DNA of 64,000 nucleotides. Source: Acidobacteriota bacterium. GTDB taxonomy: Bacteria; Acidobacteriota; UBA6911. Positions 17,854-24,695 of this stretch are shown here, in pieces. The translations under genes were made by a program, and so were the position numbers. A model generated the notes under the pieces. That model was not told the origin of the DNA, made no database searches, and saw only the letters and a list, made by a program, of their open reading frames with translations. Numbering within the stretch: position 1 is the first letter of the stretch; the number at the start of each line of letters is the position of its first letter. The stretch spans positions 1-64,000 of the forward strand of contig JAAYAJ010000031.1 of the NCBI GenBank assembly GCA_012719455.1, written 5' to 3'.

Positions 17854-17883
17854 TTGACAACTTCTGCTCTGCCCCAATATATT
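17854..17883 (+). promoter_or_regulatory. Sigma70 promoter of the riboswitch-nrdDG transcript
   Basis: Consensus TTGACA (17854-17859), 18-base spacer, TATATT (17878-17883). The predicted start near 17890 coincides with the beginning of the cobalamin riboswitch. Confidence 0.7.
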
Positions 17884-17889
17884 GTGCGT

Positions 17890-18055
17890 GCTGTTGGTTA
17901 TTAAAGGGAACCCGGTGAAAGTCCGGGACTGCCCCGCAGCGGTAAACAGGAACGAACGCCGTCAATCAAGCACTGGCTTTTTTAGCTGGGAAGCGGCGGC
18001 AAGTAGGTTTCAGCCACATGCCTGTAAGTCCGAAGACCTGCCGATAGCGGAGAAG
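17890..18055 (+). promoter_or_regulatory. Cobalamin riboswitch upstream of nrdDG
   Basis: Contains the conserved B12-box core: AAAGGGAACCCGGTGAAAGT, then CCGGGACTGCCCCGCAGCGG, GTAA, and the 3' part GCCACATGCCTG, AGTCCGAAGACCTGCC. Coenzyme B12 binding normally shuts off the downstream gene. Placed before a class III ribonucleotide reductase, it would repress this B12-independent enzyme when B12 allows a class II enzyme to work; that class II gene is predicted elsewhere in the genome. About 195 nt separate the aptamer from the nrdD ATG. A hairpin GCGGAA...TTCCGC near 18149-18170 may take part in expression control. Confidence 0.92.
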
Positions 18056-18249
18056 TGATAGCAGTAAATACCAGTTGCCGAGGGGCGGCTCGGGAGTCTT
18101 CATGTTGCATTCTCTCCCCAAGCTGAAAATCGCACATTTCTACTGAAGCGGAAATCGGGTTTTCTTCCGCCCCGCAGACTGTTTTGCAGATACATGGATG
18201 CAGGAACATCTATGCCTTCTGCGCGCGGACTTTAGGAGGAGAGACTCAA

Positions 18250-20391
18250 ATGTCCCATGGCCTGATGACAGTTGTGAATACTACCGAGCAACCCCTGGTT
18301 CGATTCGAGCAAATTCGTAAGCGTGACGGTCGGCTTGTCCCTTTCGACAGTCGGAAAATCACCCGGGCGATCCTGAAAGCGGGCAACGCCACCGGAGAGT
18401 TCTCGGAAAAAACGGCGCAATCCCTCACTGCCCGGGTCCTGGCCGTCGCGCAGTGCGTGCTGCAGCCGTCAATTCCGACCGTTGAGAATATTCAGGACCT
18501 CGTTGAAGAGACTCTGCTGGCTTCTCCTTTTAAAAAGACGGCGAAGGCATACATCCTCTATCGTGACCAGCACGCCCGTATCCGCGAAATGGTGCAGCAG
18601 GCGGACCTGGACCTGATCGACCAATACTTGAATCGATCCGATTGGAAGATCAAGGAAAACAGCAATATGGCCTATTCGCTGCAAGGCCTGAACAACTACA
18701 TCGCCGGCCACGTCAGCGAGGTTTATTGGCTTAACAAGATTTATCCTGCGGAAGTGCGGGAAGCGCACCTGGGCGGCAGCCTGCACCTGCACGATCTCGG
18801 GCTTCTGTCTGTTTATTGCGTGGGATGGGACTTGCAGGATTTGCTGAGGTCCGGGTTTTGCGGAGTGCCTGGAAAGGCGGCCAGCCGCCCGGCGCGTCAT
18901 TTCCGTGCGATCCTGGGACAGATCGTCAATTTCTTTTACACGCTGCAGGGGGAAGCGGCCGGGGCGCAGGCGTTCTCCAATTTCGATACCCTGTTGGCCC
19001 CGTTCATCCGCGCCGACGGACTCGATGAGCGCGAGGTCAAGCAGGCGCTCCAGGAGTTCCTGTTTAACGTCAACGTGCCCACGCGCGTAGGTTTCCAGAC
19101 GCCGTTTTCAAACGTGACTCTTGATCTGCAACCGCCGCAGCATTTGGCGAATCAACCCGTAATAATCGGCGGCGAACCGCAGGAGATGTGTTACGGAGAA
19201 TTCCAGGATGAAATGAATGTCTTTAACCGGGCGTTTTTGGAAATCCTGACGGAAGGGGACGCAAACGGCAGGGTGTTCACTTTCCCGATTCCGACTTACA
19301 GCATTACGAAGGACTTTGATTGGGATAATCCTGGGTTGGCCCCGCTGTGGGAGGCCACGGCAAAATACGGGATTCCTTACTTCGCAAATTTCGTAAACTC
19401 CGACATGTCGCCCGAGGACGCCCGCTCCATGTGCTGCCGGCTGCGCCTGGACACCAGGGTGCTGGAACGGCGCGGCGGCGGCCTCTTCGGCGCCAATCCC
19501 CTCACCGGGTCTATTGGAGTTGTGACGATCAATATGCCGCGGATCGGCTACCTGGCGGAAAGCGAATCGGAATTCATGGAGCAACTGGGGTCTCTCATGA
19601 AGATCGCCCGGACAAGCCTCGAAATCAAGCGCAAGGTGCTCGAGCAGCTTACCGATCAGGATTTGTATCCCTATACGCGTTTCTATCTGCGCGATATCCG
19701 CAAGCGGTTGGGCTGTTACTGGAAAAACCACTTTTCCACCATCGGGCTCGTGGGCATGAACGAAGCCTGTCTTAACTTGCTGGGAAAGGATATCGGATCC
19801 CGGGAAGGACGGGCCTTTTCCTGCCGCGTGCTCGACTTTATGCGCGGGCAACTCGGCGAGTTCCAGGACGAAACGGGGAATCTCTACAACCTGGAAGCCA
19901 CGCCCGCGGAGGGAACGAGCTATCGGCTGGCCCGCATGGATGTCAAGCTCTATCCCGAGATCCAGTCCGCCCGCGCGTCGGCCGACGACGAACCCTTCTA
20001 TACCAATTCCACCCAGCTGCCGGTCAATTATTCCGAAGATATTTTCGAGGTTATGGATTTGCAGGATGAATTGCAATCCCGCTATACGGGAGGAACCGTG
20101 CAGCACATATTCCTGGGAGAGGCCGTGCCCGATCCCAACGCCGTGAAGCAGTTCGTGCGTGCGATATGCACAAAATACCGCCTCCCCTATTTCACGATTA
20201 CCCCTTCGTTTTCAATTTGCGCGGAGCATGGTTACCTCAAGGGGGCCACTCCCCGGTGTCCTCATTGCCAAAAAGACACCGAAGTGTATTCGCGCGTCGT
20301 CGGGTATCTGCGGCCCGTAAACCAATGGAACGCCGGCAAGCAGACGGAATTTGCCATGCGCCGGACCTTTCACATCGAGGCGGCCAGATGA
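18250..20391 (+). CDS. nrdD: Anaerobic (class III) ribonucleoside-triphosphate reductase
   Basis: Glycyl-radical enzyme making dNTPs without oxygen or B12, 713 residues. An ATP-cone regulatory domain fills about the first 95 residues (IRKRDGRLVPFDSRKITRAI). The catalytic barrel follows, then a zinc-binding Cys pair set (CAEHG and CPHC) and the glycyl-radical loop SRVVGYLRPVNQW with Gly685. The start at 18250 follows AGGAGGAG; a longer frame upstream lies in the leader. The gene overlaps nrdG by four bases. Cobalamin-riboswitch control fits its role as the B12-independent alternative reductase. Confidence 0.96.
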   Translation: MSHGLMTVVNTTEQPLVRFEQIRKRDGRLVPFDSRKITRAILKAGNATGEFSEKTAQSLTARVLAVAQCVLQPSIPTVENIQDLVEETLLASPFKKTAKAYILYRDQHARIREMVQQADLDLIDQYLNRSDWKIKENSNMAYSLQGLNNYIAGHVSEVYWLNKIYPAEVREAHLGGSLHLHDLGLLSVYCVGWDLQDLLRSGFCGVPGKAASRPARHFRAILGQIVNFFYTLQGEAAGAQAFSNFDTLLAPFIRADGLDEREVKQALQEFLFNVNVPTRVGFQTPFSNVTLDLQPPQHLANQPVIIGGEPQEMCYGEFQDEMNVFNRAFLEILTEGDANGRVFTFPIPTYSITKDFDWDNPGLAPLWEATAKYGIPYFANFVNSDMSPEDARSMCCRLRLDTRVLERRGGGLFGANPLTGSIGVVTINMPRIGYLAESESEFMEQLGSLMKIARTSLEIKRKVLEQLTDQDLYPYTRFYLRDIRKRLGCYWKNHFSTIGLVGMNEACLNLLGKDIGSREGRAFSCRVLDFMRGQLGEFQDETGNLYNLEATPAEGTSYRLARMDVKLYPEIQSARASADDEPFYTNSTQLPVNYSEDIFEVMDLQDELQSRYTGGTVQHIFLGEAVPDPNAVKQFVRAICTKYRLPYFTITPSFSICAEHGYLKGATPRCPHCQKDTEVYSRVVGYLRPVNQWNAGKQTEFAMRRTFHIEAAR

Positions 20392-21002
20392 ACATCGGCG
20401 GGTTTCAATCATGCAGCCTGTGCGATTTCCCGGGAAGGGTCGCCGCCATTGTCTTTCTTCAAGGGTGCAACTTCCGCTGCCCCTACTGCCACAACCAAAG
20501 CCTGCTCCCGGCGATTGTGCCGGTGGAGCGGCTGGTGCCGCGGTCGGAGGTCATTGACAGGCTTCACCAACGCAAGGATGTCCTGAACGGAGTGGTGCTG
20601 TGCGGAGGCGAGCCTACTCTGCAGGAGGATCTGCCGGAATTCGCCGAGGAAATCCATCGGATGGGGTACGCCGTCAAGCTGGACACAAACGGCAGTCGTC
20701 CGCGCATGATCGAGAGACTGCTGGCGGCGAACCTGCTGAGTTATGTCGCCATGGATATCAAAGCGCCCTGGCGAAAGTATGAAACTCTGTCCGGGACGAA
20801 GGTGGCGATTGACGACTTGAAAGCCAGCGTCCGATTGTTGACCGAAAGCGGAATCGCACATGAATTCCGGACGACGTTTGCAAGGAGCTTGCTCTCGCAG
20901 GCGGACATCGAGGGAATCGAGGATTTGCTTCCAGCCGGGGCCCGTTACCGCGTCCAGGAAGAAACGGTAAGGACGCAGAGTATCCGGGCGCAGAACCGAT
21001 AG
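20388..21002 (+). CDS. nrdG: Anaerobic ribonucleotide reductase activating protein (radical SAM)
   Basis: Radical SAM activase of 204 residues that installs the glycyl radical on NrdD. The cluster motif is C-N-F-R-C-P-Y-C in VFLQGCNFRCPYCHNQ, followed by the SAM-binding GGEPTLQ. The sequence type (GFQSCSLCDFPG at the N-terminus) resembles the group often annotated as NrdG-like anaerobic activases rather than short E. coli NrdG. ATGA overlap with nrdD shows translational coupling. Confidence 0.93.
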   Translation: MNIGGFQSCSLCDFPGRVAAIVFLQGCNFRCPYCHNQSLLPAIVPVERLVPRSEVIDRLHQRKDVLNGVVLCGGEPTLQEDLPEFAEEIHRMGYAVKLDTNGSRPRMIERLLAANLLSYVAMDIKAPWRKYETLSGTKVAIDDLKASVRLLTESGIAHEFRTTFARSLLSQADIEGIEDLLPAGARYRVQEETVRTQSIRAQNR

Positions 21003-21127: not shown

Positions 21128-21155
21128 TTGACATTTTTAGAGCGGCGGTGATACT
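21128..21155 (+). promoter_or_regulatory. Sigma70 promoter of the cobamide operon
   Basis: Perfect TTGACA (21128-21133), 16-base spacer, GATACT (21150-21155). It places the transcript start just before the second cobalamin riboswitch, so this operon is transcribed separately from nrdDG. Confidence 0.6.
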
Positions 21156-21159
21156 TGAT

Positions 21160-21292
21160 CGGCGATTTTGGCAGGGAATTCGGTGAGAATCCGAGACTAT
21201 ACCCGTAACTGTGTTTAGACGCCGTATAAAGGCGATCTATCAGTCAGAACGCGAATGCCTCCGGGATCAGGGGCGCCAAACGGTCTTCGCAA
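21160..21292 (+). promoter_or_regulatory. Cobalamin riboswitch upstream of the nitrilase-cbiR-cblS operon
   Basis: Core elements in order: GGCAGGGAATTCGGTGAGAA, TCCGAGACTATACCC, GTAACTGTG, a variable arm (GCCGTATAAAGGC), then CAGTCAGAACGCGAATGCC. The terminal GCC pairs with the initial GGC as in known B12 aptamers. It should lower expression when adenosylcobalamin is abundant. About 85 nt lie between the aptamer and the first ATG. Confidence 0.9.
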
Positions 21293-21376
21293 GCCCGCAA
21301 AAGGCACAACCTCAGCCCTGCAATGATATTTGTCGAGCACATTTGTGTTTCCTATTTGGAATCCATGGAGACGGGA

Positions 21377-22927
21377 ATGGAACAACTGAAGATCGGCCTG
21401 GTTCACCTGAATGTTCGTTACAATGAGCCGGAGCACAATTTAAGAAATATGACAGCGCTCAATCGCGAGGCTGCCGAGGCCGGCGCAAAGATCATTGTCA
21501 ACACGGAACTGGGCATATCCGGCTACAGCTACCGGTCCCGCGATGAAATTGCGGGAGCGGTTCAAGCAAGCGATGGGGCCATGATCCGGAAGCTAGCCGC
21601 AATTGCATCCGATTGTGGAGTCTACATTGTTGTAGGCTACGCCGAACATGATTCCGCAACGGGAATTTATTATAACGCGGCCACGGCCCTCTCTCCCAAG
21701 GGCGAAATCGTATGCCACTATCGAAAGACCTCGGCCGAGGTGCGCTGGGCATGCCCGGGGATTCCTCAACAGCAAAACACATTCGAGACTCCCTGGGGAC
21801 GGGCGGGAATTCTGGTTTGTTCTGATACCTATTTTGGAGCGGTCACCCGCATGACGGCTCTCCGAGGGGCGGATATCATCCTGGTGCCGGCCAATTGGCC
21901 GTCCGATCCATTGGACCCGGCGGAACTCTGGCAATCCAGGGCTTATGAAAACGGGGTTTACCTTGCCGCCTGCAATCGGTGCGGGCGCGACCGCAACATG
22001 GAATTTCGCAATTCACAATCTTGCTGTTTCAATCCATCCGGAGAAGTCCTGGTGCAGGAAGGCAGTGAGGACTCCAAAATATTCTATGCCGTCCTGCCGC
22101 TGCATAACGGGAAGCTCTCCAGCCTTGCGAAGGAACGGCTCCAATCGAGAACCCCTCGACTCTATACGCCGATGTATCTCGATATGCGCTACGCCGAAGA
22201 TCTCACCTCCTATTATGATCTTCCCAAGCCCGTGGAACGCGAATTGATCGCCGCGGTGCTGCCCCCCGACCAAGTATTTTCTCCTTCGGCCATTGAAGGC
22301 ATTCTCGGCGATGAAATCCCGAGGGTGGATGCGCGCCTTCTGGTATTACCCGCCGGCAAAGTCCGTTCGATCGCCGAAGCGGAGAAGGTCCTCCTTTCCG
22401 TTGCGTCCCGCCATAACATGGACGTGTGCGCCGGATTTGAGGACGGTTTGAACAAAAACGACCCGATCATGATACTGGCCGATTCCGCGGGCCGCATTAC
22501 CCGTCATCGCCTGCCGGCTGGAAAGGGGGCCGATGACAGGCCCTGTATTGCAGACATTGCCGGCACCCGGGTTCTTCTTGCATGCTCCGGGGAACTGATG
22601 CACTCCGAGCTCGCCCTGGCGGCCGCCAAGCTCGGCTGCGATGTCGTCGTATCATCCACAGGGAATGATCTTCATGATCAAATGAGCCGGGTGATCGCCG
22701 CTCGGAGCATTGAGCAACTCTATGTTGCGGTGGCTGGCAAAAACAAAGCATTTATCTGCGAACCGCCTGAAAGCCATTACCGGTGGAAGGAAGTCGGCGT
22801 TCAGGGCGGCGGATCCTGTTCGATGAAACTGGATCCGGCAAAGAGCAGGAAAAAGAGTTTTTATGATCGGCTCGACTACGACCTTCTTCTCCGCAGCGAC
22901 GGATGCGAAATGGAACGGATCAACTGA
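21377..22927 (+). CDS. Two-domain nitrilase-superfamily protein, cobalamin-regulated
   Basis: Protein of 516 residues. The first 260 residues form a complete carbon-nitrogen hydrolase domain with the Glu-Lys-Cys triad: E44 (IIVNTELGISGY), K117 (VCHYRKTSAEVRW) and C148 (GILVCSDTYFG). Residues about 288-490 look like a second, degenerate copy: a Cys is kept in RVLLACSGELMHSE (C403) but the Glu and Lys positions (LLVLPAGK, TRHRLPAG) are lost. Family members hydrolyse or transfer non-peptide amide bonds. It heads a B12-riboswitch operon with CbiR-like and CblS genes, so a corrinoid amide is an attractive substrate, but this is inference. Start chosen at 21377, after GGAGACGGG; 21365 is possible. 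Cytoplasmic. Confidence 0.8.
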   Translation: MEQLKIGLVHLNVRYNEPEHNLRNMTALNREAAEAGAKIIVNTELGISGYSYRSRDEIAGAVQASDGAMIRKLAAIASDCGVYIVVGYAEHDSATGIYYNAATALSPKGEIVCHYRKTSAEVRWACPGIPQQQNTFETPWGRAGILVCSDTYFGAVTRMTALRGADIILVPANWPSDPLDPAELWQSRAYENGVYLAACNRCGRDRNMEFRNSQSCCFNPSGEVLVQEGSEDSKIFYAVLPLHNGKLSSLAKERLQSRTPRLYTPMYLDMRYAEDLTSYYDLPKPVERELIAAVLPPDQVFSPSAIEGILGDEIPRVDARLLVLPAGKVRSIAEAEKVLLSVASRHNMDVCAGFEDGLNKNDPIMILADSAGRITRHRLPAGKGADDRPCIADIAGTRVLLACSGELMHSELALAAAKLGCDVVVSSTGNDLHDQMSRVIAARSIEQLYVAVAGKNKAFICEPPESHYRWKEVGVQGGGSCSMKLDPAKSRKKSFYDRLDYDLLLRSDGCEMERIN

Positions 22928-22962
22928 GACGACGAATTAGCGCAATGAAGAGGTGCCCTTGT

Positions 22963-23964
22963 ATGCGGTTCGCGTTGAATTTCAGTACTCATCCTGGAGA
23001 TCTGGAGATCATCGGCCATGATTGGAACAATGCCCGAAGGATCCTGGAAGGTGAGGGGTTTGATGGATTCGAATTGTATCCCGTGGGAGAGCATGCATGG
23101 GAGTTGATCCCCGAAGGATTGATTATCGGATTGCATCTGCGTTTTTTCCCAATTCTCAGGCCGTTTTGGATTGGGGACAAGCGGCGCTTGTTGGAAATAT
23201 TTGGAGACGAAGAAACGGTTGCCGCGTTTTACGGTGGGCCGACGCGGGAATCCTTGGTAGCGGTTTATTGCAGGCAGTTGGCTCTTGCCGCACAGCTTGG
23301 ATGCGAGTATGTCGTCTTCCACTTGGCGCAGAGCGAATTTGATTACATATACAATTGGCGATTCCCGTGGAATTGGCGCGAAACCATTGATATATGCGCG
23401 GAGTTGATAACGGAGGCCCTGGCCGATTCCCCGTTCACAGGAGAATTGCTCCTGGAAAACTTATGGTGGCCGGGCAGCTTCAGGGCCGTTCATCCTGAAG
23501 AAATCGATTATGCGCTGTCGCGTATCGCCTATCCCCGGACAGGAGTCGTTCTCGATACGGGGCATCTTCTGAATACCAACCAGGAGATCGTTTCAGAAGC
23601 GGACGGAATCGAATTCCTGATTCGTGCGGTTGAATCACTGGGAGAAGCGCGAAAGGCCATCCGCGGCGTTCATCTGACAAGAAGCCTTTCGGCGGAATAT
23701 GTAACCAAAACTTTTCAAGCCTCCCCTCCTTCCCTGTCCCGGGGAACTTTTTGGGACCGTTACCATCAGGCAATCGAGCATGTGAACCTGATAGACCAAC
23801 ACGATCCTTTCGAGGATCCGGCGATTGCCGGCCTTTTTGATGTAATCGATCCCGCCTACGTGACGTACGAATTTGGGTATGCGTCGCGCGGGGAATGGTT
23901 GGACAAGATCTTCCGCCAGCGAAATGCCATGGCCGGGGTGCATCGCGGCGTGAAGGAGGAATAA
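22963..23964 (+). CDS. cbiR: CbiR-like TIM-barrel protein (cobamide remodelling)
   Basis: Protein of 333 residues of the xylose isomerase-like/AP endonuclease 2 TIM-barrel superfamily. Likely metal ligands appear at strand ends: H120 (VVFHLAQ), E165 (LLLENLW), D198 and H201 (VVLDTGHLL), H237 (IRGVHLTRS). CbiR of Akkermansia belongs to this superfamily and hydrolyses the phosphoribosyl bond of the cobamide nucleotide loop, releasing alpha-ribazole. I assign that role mainly from context: a cobalamin riboswitch upstream and CblS directly downstream (stop and start overlap by one base). The ATG at 22963 follows AGAGGTG; 22945 is the alternative. If context misleads, it would be a sugar-phosphate isomerase-like protein. 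Confidence 0.7.
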   Translation: MRFALNFSTHPGDLEIIGHDWNNARRILEGEGFDGFELYPVGEHAWELIPEGLIIGLHLRFFPILRPFWIGDKRRLLEIFGDEETVAAFYGGPTRESLVAVYCRQLALAAQLGCEYVVFHLAQSEFDYIYNWRFPWNWRETIDICAELITEALADSPFTGELLLENLWWPGSFRAVHPEEIDYALSRIAYPRTGVVLDTGHLLNTNQEIVSEADGIEFLIRAVESLGEARKAIRGVHLTRSLSAEYVTKTFQASPPSLSRGTFWDRYHQAIEHVNLIDQHDPFEDPAIAGLFDVIDPAYVTYEFGYASRGEWLDKIFRQRNAMAGVHRGVKEE

Positions 23965-24695
23965 TGGCCGCGTTGGTGCAGACGGCGCGCGACATCCTGG
24001 TATACCGGCAAAAGGAGGGCTTCCTTACGGTTGCCGCCGACAGCCTGGGCGGCTTTGGAATGAAGCCGGGCGATGCAATTCAAGTGGCGCCTGAATTGTG
24101 TGGACGCATGACTGTGCGCGTCTGCCTGATGGAGACGCTGGCGGTAGGTGCGATTCCTTTCTCGGTGACGGCGTTGACATGCAATGAGCGTGAACCGACG
24201 GGAGCGCGGATATTGTCCGGAATACAAGCTGAGCTTGCCGATTCCGGATATCCGGATCTTTCATGGGGCGGAAGCACGGAGGACAATGTGGCCACCAACA
24301 TGACGGCGATAGGAATCACGCTTCTTGGAGAATGCAGGCGGCTTTCATGGCGACTTGCTCAACCCGGAGACGACGTGTATTTGCTGGGCAAACCGGCTGT
24401 CGGCGAAGAAGTGCTGGCGAACCTGGCCGCATTGCCGACTCCCCGGCAGATTCGTCAGTTGCGCGAGAATGCATGCGTAGGCGATGTGATTCCCTGCGGG
24501 TCCCGCGGGATTGCCTGGGAGCTGCACGTTTTGGAGGAAGAGACGGGATTGCACACGAGATTGACACCCGGTTTTGATGATTCCATCCTGGGGGAAAGCG
24601 CCGGACCTGCGACTTGCGCCATTTTCACCTCAAGCAAGGCGCTGGAGGGCTTTTCCGGATCGGTGGAAAAATTGGGCTCCCTGGTTCGAATGTGA
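23964..24695 (+). CDS. cblS: CblS-type alpha-ribazole kinase (PurM/AIR-synthase fold)
   Basis: Protein of 243 residues of the AIR synthase-related fold. The N-terminal pattern RDILVYRQKEGFLTVAADS, GGFGMKPGDAIQVAPELCGR and CNEREPTGARILSGIQAEL, then GGSTEDNVATNMTAIGITLLG, matches the CblS proteins known in Firmicutes. There CblS phosphorylates alpha-ribazole, the lower-ligand nucleoside, so it can be joined again to a corrinoid. AAGGAGGA precedes the ATG, which shares a base with the preceding stop (TAATG). Together with CbiR this would recapture the nucleoside released from scavenged cobamides. It is shorter than SelD or ThiL and lacks their N-terminal motifs. Confidence 0.82.
   Translation: MAALVQTARDILVYRQKEGFLTVAADSLGGFGMKPGDAIQVAPELCGRMTVRVCLMETLAVGAIPFSVTALTCNEREPTGARILSGIQAELADSGYPDLSWGGSTEDNVATNMTAIGITLLGECRRLSWRLAQPGDDVYLLGKPAVGEEVLANLAALPTPRQIRQLRENACVGDVIPCGSRGIAWELHVLEEETGLHTRLTPGFDDSILGESAGPATCAIFTSSKALEGFSGSVEKLGSLVRM

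Follow-up and report, generated by a model that had tools for sequence, protein, structure and literature searches.

We report a riboswitch-led operon whose central gene represents a candidate corrinoid-linked AP-endonuclease-2 family distinct from CbiR. The operon lies at positions 21128-24695 on the forward strand of the window, by which we mean the whole 64,000-nucleotide stretch of an Acidobacteriota genome that was analysed (contig JAAYAJ010000031.1), and consists of a cobalamin aptamer followed by three tandem genes, which encode a two-domain nitrilase-superfamily amidase (gene 1), a metal-dependent TIM-barrel hydrolase (gene 2) and the alpha-ribazole kinase CblS (gene 3) (Table 1). Taken together, the comparisons suggest that the enzyme families of two of the three proteins are new to B12 metabolism, and the operon points to undescribed recycling steps. 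The explanation that we favour, and hold to be reasonably probable, is a corrinoid-repressed salvage or remodelling operon in which gene 2 would cut the nucleotide loop of cobamides, CblS would recapture alpha-ribazole and gene 1 would hydrolyse some amide.

Gene 2 belongs to a TIM-barrel family separate from CbiR

CbiR is the cobamide remodelling phosphodiesterase of Akkermansia muciniphila (PMC7733943). Like CbiR (model NF041277), gene 2 encodes a TIM barrel of the AP endonuclease 2 superfamily with conserved metal-binding His, Asp and Glu residues, and its family is encoded together with corrinoid uptake and salvage genes. Unlike CbiR, it is about 50 residues longer, is often located beside CbiZ or CobA, and falls in a separate clade. 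The gene 2 product scored 19.7 bits against the CbiR model, for which the cut-off is 105, and among 11 scanned family members no match to this model was better than E = 5e-4. For the phylogeny, 17 relatives were gathered by sequence alone (two PLSDB records, eight GTDB contigs and seven from a set of 395 genomes belonging to the same phylum as the Desulfobulbaceae locus), and a maximum-likelihood tree was built from the family together with 14 other superfamily members and four true CbiR proteins, that of A. muciniphila not being among them. The gene 2 family formed a single clade (support 100/99; 100% of bootstrap trees), apart both from CbiR and from the other superfamily members, in a tree whose long branches leave the deeper branching order unsettled. 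The initial annotation, which had called gene 2 CbiR-type, was right about the superfamily, the metal ligands and the corrinoid context, but not about membership of the CbiR family, which is ruled out by the model score and the tree. The family is present in at least Desulfobacterota, Fusobacteriota, Firmicutes and Acidobacteriota, and profile libraries recognise it only as a sugar-isomerase-like TIM barrel. The best start of gene 2 is 22963, where the homologues begin (MRxLLNFSTHPGD), with 22945 as the alternative.

The fold and the conserved residues of the family also bear on its chemistry. An AF2 model made from nine members (predicted local distance difference test, pLDDT, 91.4) had endonuclease IV structures as its best fold matches, and the profile search agreed with this result. 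Nine residues are invariant in every covering member among the 17 relatives, namely H64, H126, E171, D204, H207, H243, D284, H286 and E309 (numbered from 22945). We take this set of His, Asp and Glu to have the composition of the endonuclease IV three-metal site, which points to cleavage of a phosphate ester and not to sugar isomerisation. For the central part, the correspondence was drawn from alignment and motif, with H64, D284, H286 and E309 not placed on coordinates. A sugar isomerase or epimerase without any corrinoid chemistry would be in keeping with the xylose-isomerase-like TIM-barrel superfamily and with the position of gene 2 outside the CbiR clade. However, we consider this very improbable in view of the endonuclease IV fold, the nine metal positions as against the smaller set of the isomerases, and the corrinoid context of most of the loci described below.

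Genomic neighbours of gene 2

Corrinoid genes adjoin gene 2 at 11 of the 18 loci, the window included, and because this context is accompanied by the retained metal positions, the gene 2 family is probably a second CbiR-like family. For example, gene 2 follows a riboswitch and BtuB at two loci (L083 and L085), and at a third (L081) it is preceded by a riboswitch, BtuB, BtuD and CobA and followed by BtuF and BtuC. CbiZ is a neighbour at three loci. In L021, the order is CobN, ChlID, ChlI, two ATP-binding cassette (ABC) genes, CbiZ and gene 2, the last two overlapping by 4 bases; L082 has the same order with CobA inserted, and CbiZ is one gene away from gene 2; L080, on a Desulfobacterota contig, reads CbiZ, gene 2, BtuF, BtuC, a radical S-adenosylmethionine (SAM) gene and a nitrilase. 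At the other loci, gene 2 comes last after CobN, a radical SAM gene, ChlI and ChlD (L024), is transcribed divergently from CobQ, near a BtuB riboswitch (L022), is convergent with cbiG beside cbiD, cobM, cobJ and cobB (L023), or precedes NrdJ (L079). Contig ends truncate the neighbourhoods in L020 and L084.

The main alternative for gene 2 is that it acts after CbiZ has cut the f-amide, hydrolysing the phosphodiester of the released alpha-ribazole-phospho-aminopropanol to yield alpha-ribazole for CblS, which would be recapture of the lower ligand and not initiation of remodelling. This would fit the direct coupling of gene 2 to CbiZ in L021 and L080 and the distance of one gene in L082, as well as the presence of CbiZ in the window genome and the position of CblS after gene 2 in the operon. 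However, in L081, L083 and L085 gene 2 comes after BtuB or CobA with no CbiZ within the stretch read, the wider genomes of several members not having been searched for CbiZ, and we regard this alternative as possible but doubtful.

Several further features of these loci were recorded. CobN and ChlI/ChlD-type chelatase subunits share the gene 2 operon in L021, L082 and L024, in two cases with CbiZ and an ABC transporter also present. Operons with CbiZ, BtuFC or CobN in three phyla have in common a radical SAM/SPASM protein of about 340 amino acids (L007:4869-5885, L080:843-1856 and L024:3870-4940). Several 'plasmids' of 2-3 Mb in the plasmid collection (L013, L014 and L017, from Fusobacterium vincentii, Acetoanaerobium and Listeria) are evidently chromosomes.

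Gene 3 is CblS by family

The gene 3 product is 30-35% identical over its full length to CblS of Listeria, Lactobacillus and Cytobacillus, the closest proteins of the plasmid collection being 30-41% identical, and it shares their common motifs and cob operon context. Homologues are encoded between CblT, the S component of an energy-coupling factor (ECF) transporter, and CobS in Levilactobacillus and Lactiplantibacillus. In Listeria the homologue leads cobU-cobS-cobC, and in Cytobacillus it follows CblT in an operon with cobU, cobS and an adenosyltransferase gene; a CblT-CblS-CobS-CobC operon is named on the plasmid of one of the matches (PMC6722938). Against the ThiL model (TIGR01379), gene 3 scored 22.7 bits with a cut-off of 184, and both ThiL and SelD are ruled out by the scores and the neighbourhoods. 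By family, gene 3 is CblS, as had been proposed initially. Unlike the Listeria and Lactobacillus systems, the window operon has no CblT transporter gene, and the window genome also has CobT, whereas Lactobacillus coryniformis has CblS and lacks CobT (PMC5064896).

Gene 1 is a nitrilase with a probable corrinoid link

In the N-terminal domain of the gene 1 product, the Glu-Lys-Cys triad is intact when aligned with 3ivz (ntELgisGY, yRKtsae and ilvCsDtyF), and the C-terminal half repeats the N-terminal domain in degenerate form (hhalign probability 99.9%). The likeliest start is 21377, with GGAGACGG upstream, and in-frame alternatives are located at 21323 and 21365. CN_hydrolase was the only profile matched, the CbiZ model (PF01955) not being matched, and a single-sequence structure model was discarded (pLDDT 41.7). 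The closest relative found is the nitrilase of L080, which is 43% identical to gene 1 across 281 residues and has the motifs RWACPGxPxQxNxF, CSDTYxG and ANWPxxxLDPxELWQxRA in common with it. This gene comes last in the CbiZ-gene 2-BtuFC operon, after the radical SAM gene and with overlapping ends, so that co-occurrence of the nitrilase with corrinoid genes was seen in one other phylum. These comparisons support a corrinoid-linked nitrilase, though not one that acts as a CbiZ substitute, and the link, thin but specific, would make gene 1 the first nitrilase tied to corrinoid remodelling operons. A literature search combining nitrilase and cobalamin riboswitch returned nothing relevant, and no match to gene 1 was found in viral contigs. 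Nitrilases in the L020 and L021 genomes were rejected as gene 1 orthologues, the best two being 30-33% identical over one domain and located in non-corrinoid neighbourhoods.

Two other roles for gene 1 have to be weighed. First, gene 1 had initially been assigned the job of CbiZ, that is, hydrolysis of the aminopropanol amide of cobinamide (phosphate) to give cobyric acid. Like CbiZ, the adenosylcobinamide amidohydrolase (PF01955), gene 1 has a predicted amidase role in corrinoid remodelling and is under a riboswitch, and both the intact triad and the placing of a gene 1 homologue in one operon with gene 2 (L080) would be compatible with this role. However, the nitrilase fold is unrelated to that of CbiZ, and CbiZ is present in addition and not replaced: the window genome encodes it under its own riboswitch and the L080 operon contains it, so the step is covered in both. 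Because CbiZ accompanies gene 1 in both genomes found, a CbiZ-like role is unlikely, and hydrolysis of the aminopropanol amide by gene 1 did not find support. Second, gene 1 may be a small-amide or nitrogen-scavenging amidase that was brought under B12 control without having a corrinoid substrate. The plasmid collection contains about 110 relatives at about 30% identity, and the surroundings of the nearest two-domain ones (~30% identical) were inspected at five loci. At four of these, in the Proteobacteria Rhizobium, Agrobacterium and Klebsiella, the relatives lie in operons for urea or short-chain-amide ABC transport, two of them with formamidase, and at the fifth (Priestia) no clear partner gene was seen. 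These hydrolases of urt-type operons resemble gene 1 in layout and degenerate second domain but differ in their small-amide and urea transport context, which is without corrinoid genes. Since the operon that holds the closest relative found is purely a corrinoid one, and gene 1 itself leads an operon with a corrinoid aptamer in front of it and two corrinoid-linked genes behind, we judge a purely small-amide role to be somewhat unlikely.

Riboswitch and operon layout

The aptamer scored below the RF00174 gathering score of 31.5 and is missed at the default threshold (E = 1.9e-4 when 501 bases were searched, 2.6e-4 for the whole genome). The alignment nevertheless spans model positions 1-189, and the GGAA...CGGUG...AAUCCG...ACUGU core and the B12 box are retained. 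The same genome has a second short aptamer (C9:45634, 27.9 bits), which heads two TonB receptor genes with BtuF- and BtuC-like genes further downstream. The two short aptamers are 75% identical (z = 14.6 against shuffles), whereas the four strong aptamers of the genome reach z <= 2.1 against the operon aptamer, and the sibling makes this aptamer more credible. Judged from these alignments, it is a genuine aptamer, beyond chance, despite the sub-gathering score, as the initial annotation had it. A promoter had also been placed at the operon head. The motif TTGACA-16-GATACT at 21128-21155, which overlaps the 5' end of the aptamer, was rejected as a sigma-70 promoter, because 3 such sites were found with 2.5 expected by chance. 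With the start at 22963, gene 2 is separated from the end of gene 1 (22927) by 35 bases, not by 36 as first given; the one-base overlap of genes 2 and 3 stood, the TAA of gene 2 (23962-23964) and the ATG of gene 3 (23964-23966) having one base in common.

Table 1 Features of the operon and of its upstream neighbour in the window
Feature	Position	Strand	Basis
Cobalamin riboswitch aptamer, short divergent subtype	21129..21276	+	RF00174, 25.0 bits
Gene 1, two-domain nitrilase-superfamily amidase, 516 amino acids	21377..22927	+	CN_hydrolase PF00795, 133 bits
Gene 2, predicted metal-dependent TIM-barrel hydrolase, corrinoid-linked AP_endonuc_2 family distinct from CbiR	22963..23964	+	PF01261, 43 bits
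Gene 3, CblS, alpha-ribazole kinase by family, 243 amino acids	23964..24695	+	Full-length homology to CblS in cob operons
Neighbouring strong cobalamin riboswitch before nrdD-nrdG	17878..18059	+	RF00174, 96.1 bits

Directly upstream of the operon (17878-21002), the strong riboswitch is followed by nrdD and nrdG, for which the NrdD and NrdG2 models were over their cut-offs. NrdD-NrdG is the B12-independent anaerobic ribonucleotide reductase, and the arrangement is a textbook B12 switch of isozymes.

Corrinoid genes elsewhere in the genome

The initial annotation had proposed a complete remodelling module without CbiZ. This part of the proposal failed, as the window genome has a riboswitch-led operon with the order BtuF, BtuD, radical SAM gene and CbiZ (206.6 bits), and CbiZ also occurs in the L080 operon; cobamide remodelling or salvage with CblS stood, whereas the absence of CbiZ and the membership of CbiR did not. 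CobU, a fused CobD-CobQ and CbiB are located behind another riboswitch of the genome, BtuF-BtuC-BtuD-BtuB behind a fourth, and CobT and CobS are adjacent. All gene kinds of the L080 operon are present in the window genome, split over two loci, each under corrinoid aptamers. CbiR was over the cut-off in two of 396 genomes of the phylum, one of which belongs to the same genus as the window organism and has the order riboswitch, BtuB, CobU, CbiR, CobT and CobS; the window genome has no CbiR over the cut-off and has gene 2 instead.

Other observations concern these loci. The fused CobD (threonine-phosphate decarboxylase)-CobQ (cobyric acid synthase) is one protein of 848 amino acids (L008:914-3460). 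In L007 (C9:36000-55000 of the window genome), there are two divergent corrinoid riboswitches, a strong one before BtuF-BtuD-radical SAM-CbiZ and a short variant that heads two TonB receptors, two cytochrome-c-assembly-like genes, BtuF and BtuC. In one genome (G061), three CbiR genes at separate loci (L063, L064 and L065) score over the family cut-off, and in L065 tandem cobalamin aptamers (905-1039 and 1080-1267) lie ahead of CobQ and CbiR.

Discussion

In the salvage and remodelling operon that we favour, scarcity of corrinoid would permit expression through the riboswitch. Gene 2, as a metal-dependent phosphodiesterase, would cut the nucleotide loop of imported cobamides to give cobinamide (phosphate) and a free alpha-riboside, and CblS would convert alpha-ribazole to alpha-ribazole phosphate, from which CobU and CobS, whose genes lie outside the operon in the same genome, could reassemble the preferred cobamide. 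Where required, the aminopropanol arm may be taken off by CbiZ and rebuilt by CbiB and CobD. The gene 1 amidase would act on an amide of a corrinoid or of a remodelling product, alongside CbiZ and not replacing it. A loop cutter beside CbiZ would not be odd, because CbiZ is also present in nearly 20% of the taxa that have CbiR homologues (Mok et al., PMC7733943).

Several points weigh against this explanation. The exact trio of genes 1-3 was found in the window genome only, gene 2 was found in none of about 100 relatives, and CblS was found in none of 395 other genomes of the phylum. At five gene 2 loci (L013, L014 and L025-L027), no corrinoid gene was present in the flanks read. For gene 1, L080 is the only contig outside the window genome that ties it to corrinoid genes, the homologue there being cut by the contig end, and the four urea or short-chain-amide transport operons of its plasmid relatives suggest another setting. 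Moreover, a loop cutter and a recapture kinase acting together would risk a futile cycle.

A more far-reaching proposal, which we make tentatively, would combine two claims. Gene 2 would represent a second family of cobamide-loop phosphodiesterases, of separate origin from CbiR within the same superfamily and working with CbiZ, and gene 1 would be the first nitrilase specific for corrinoids and would take off an amide left in place by all remodelling enzymes known so far, in a wider module with the radical SAM/SPASM protein and the CobN/ChlID-type chelatase.

The cobamide that a microbe can use depends on its ability to swap the lower ligand, and the known bacterial remodelling enzymes are CbiZ, CbiR and certain CobS proteins (PMC7733943). 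If our explanation is true, the distinct metal-dependent family of gene 2 would extend the range of bacteria predicted to remodel cobamides, and the nitrilase of the corrinoid operon would represent new chemistry in the pathway.

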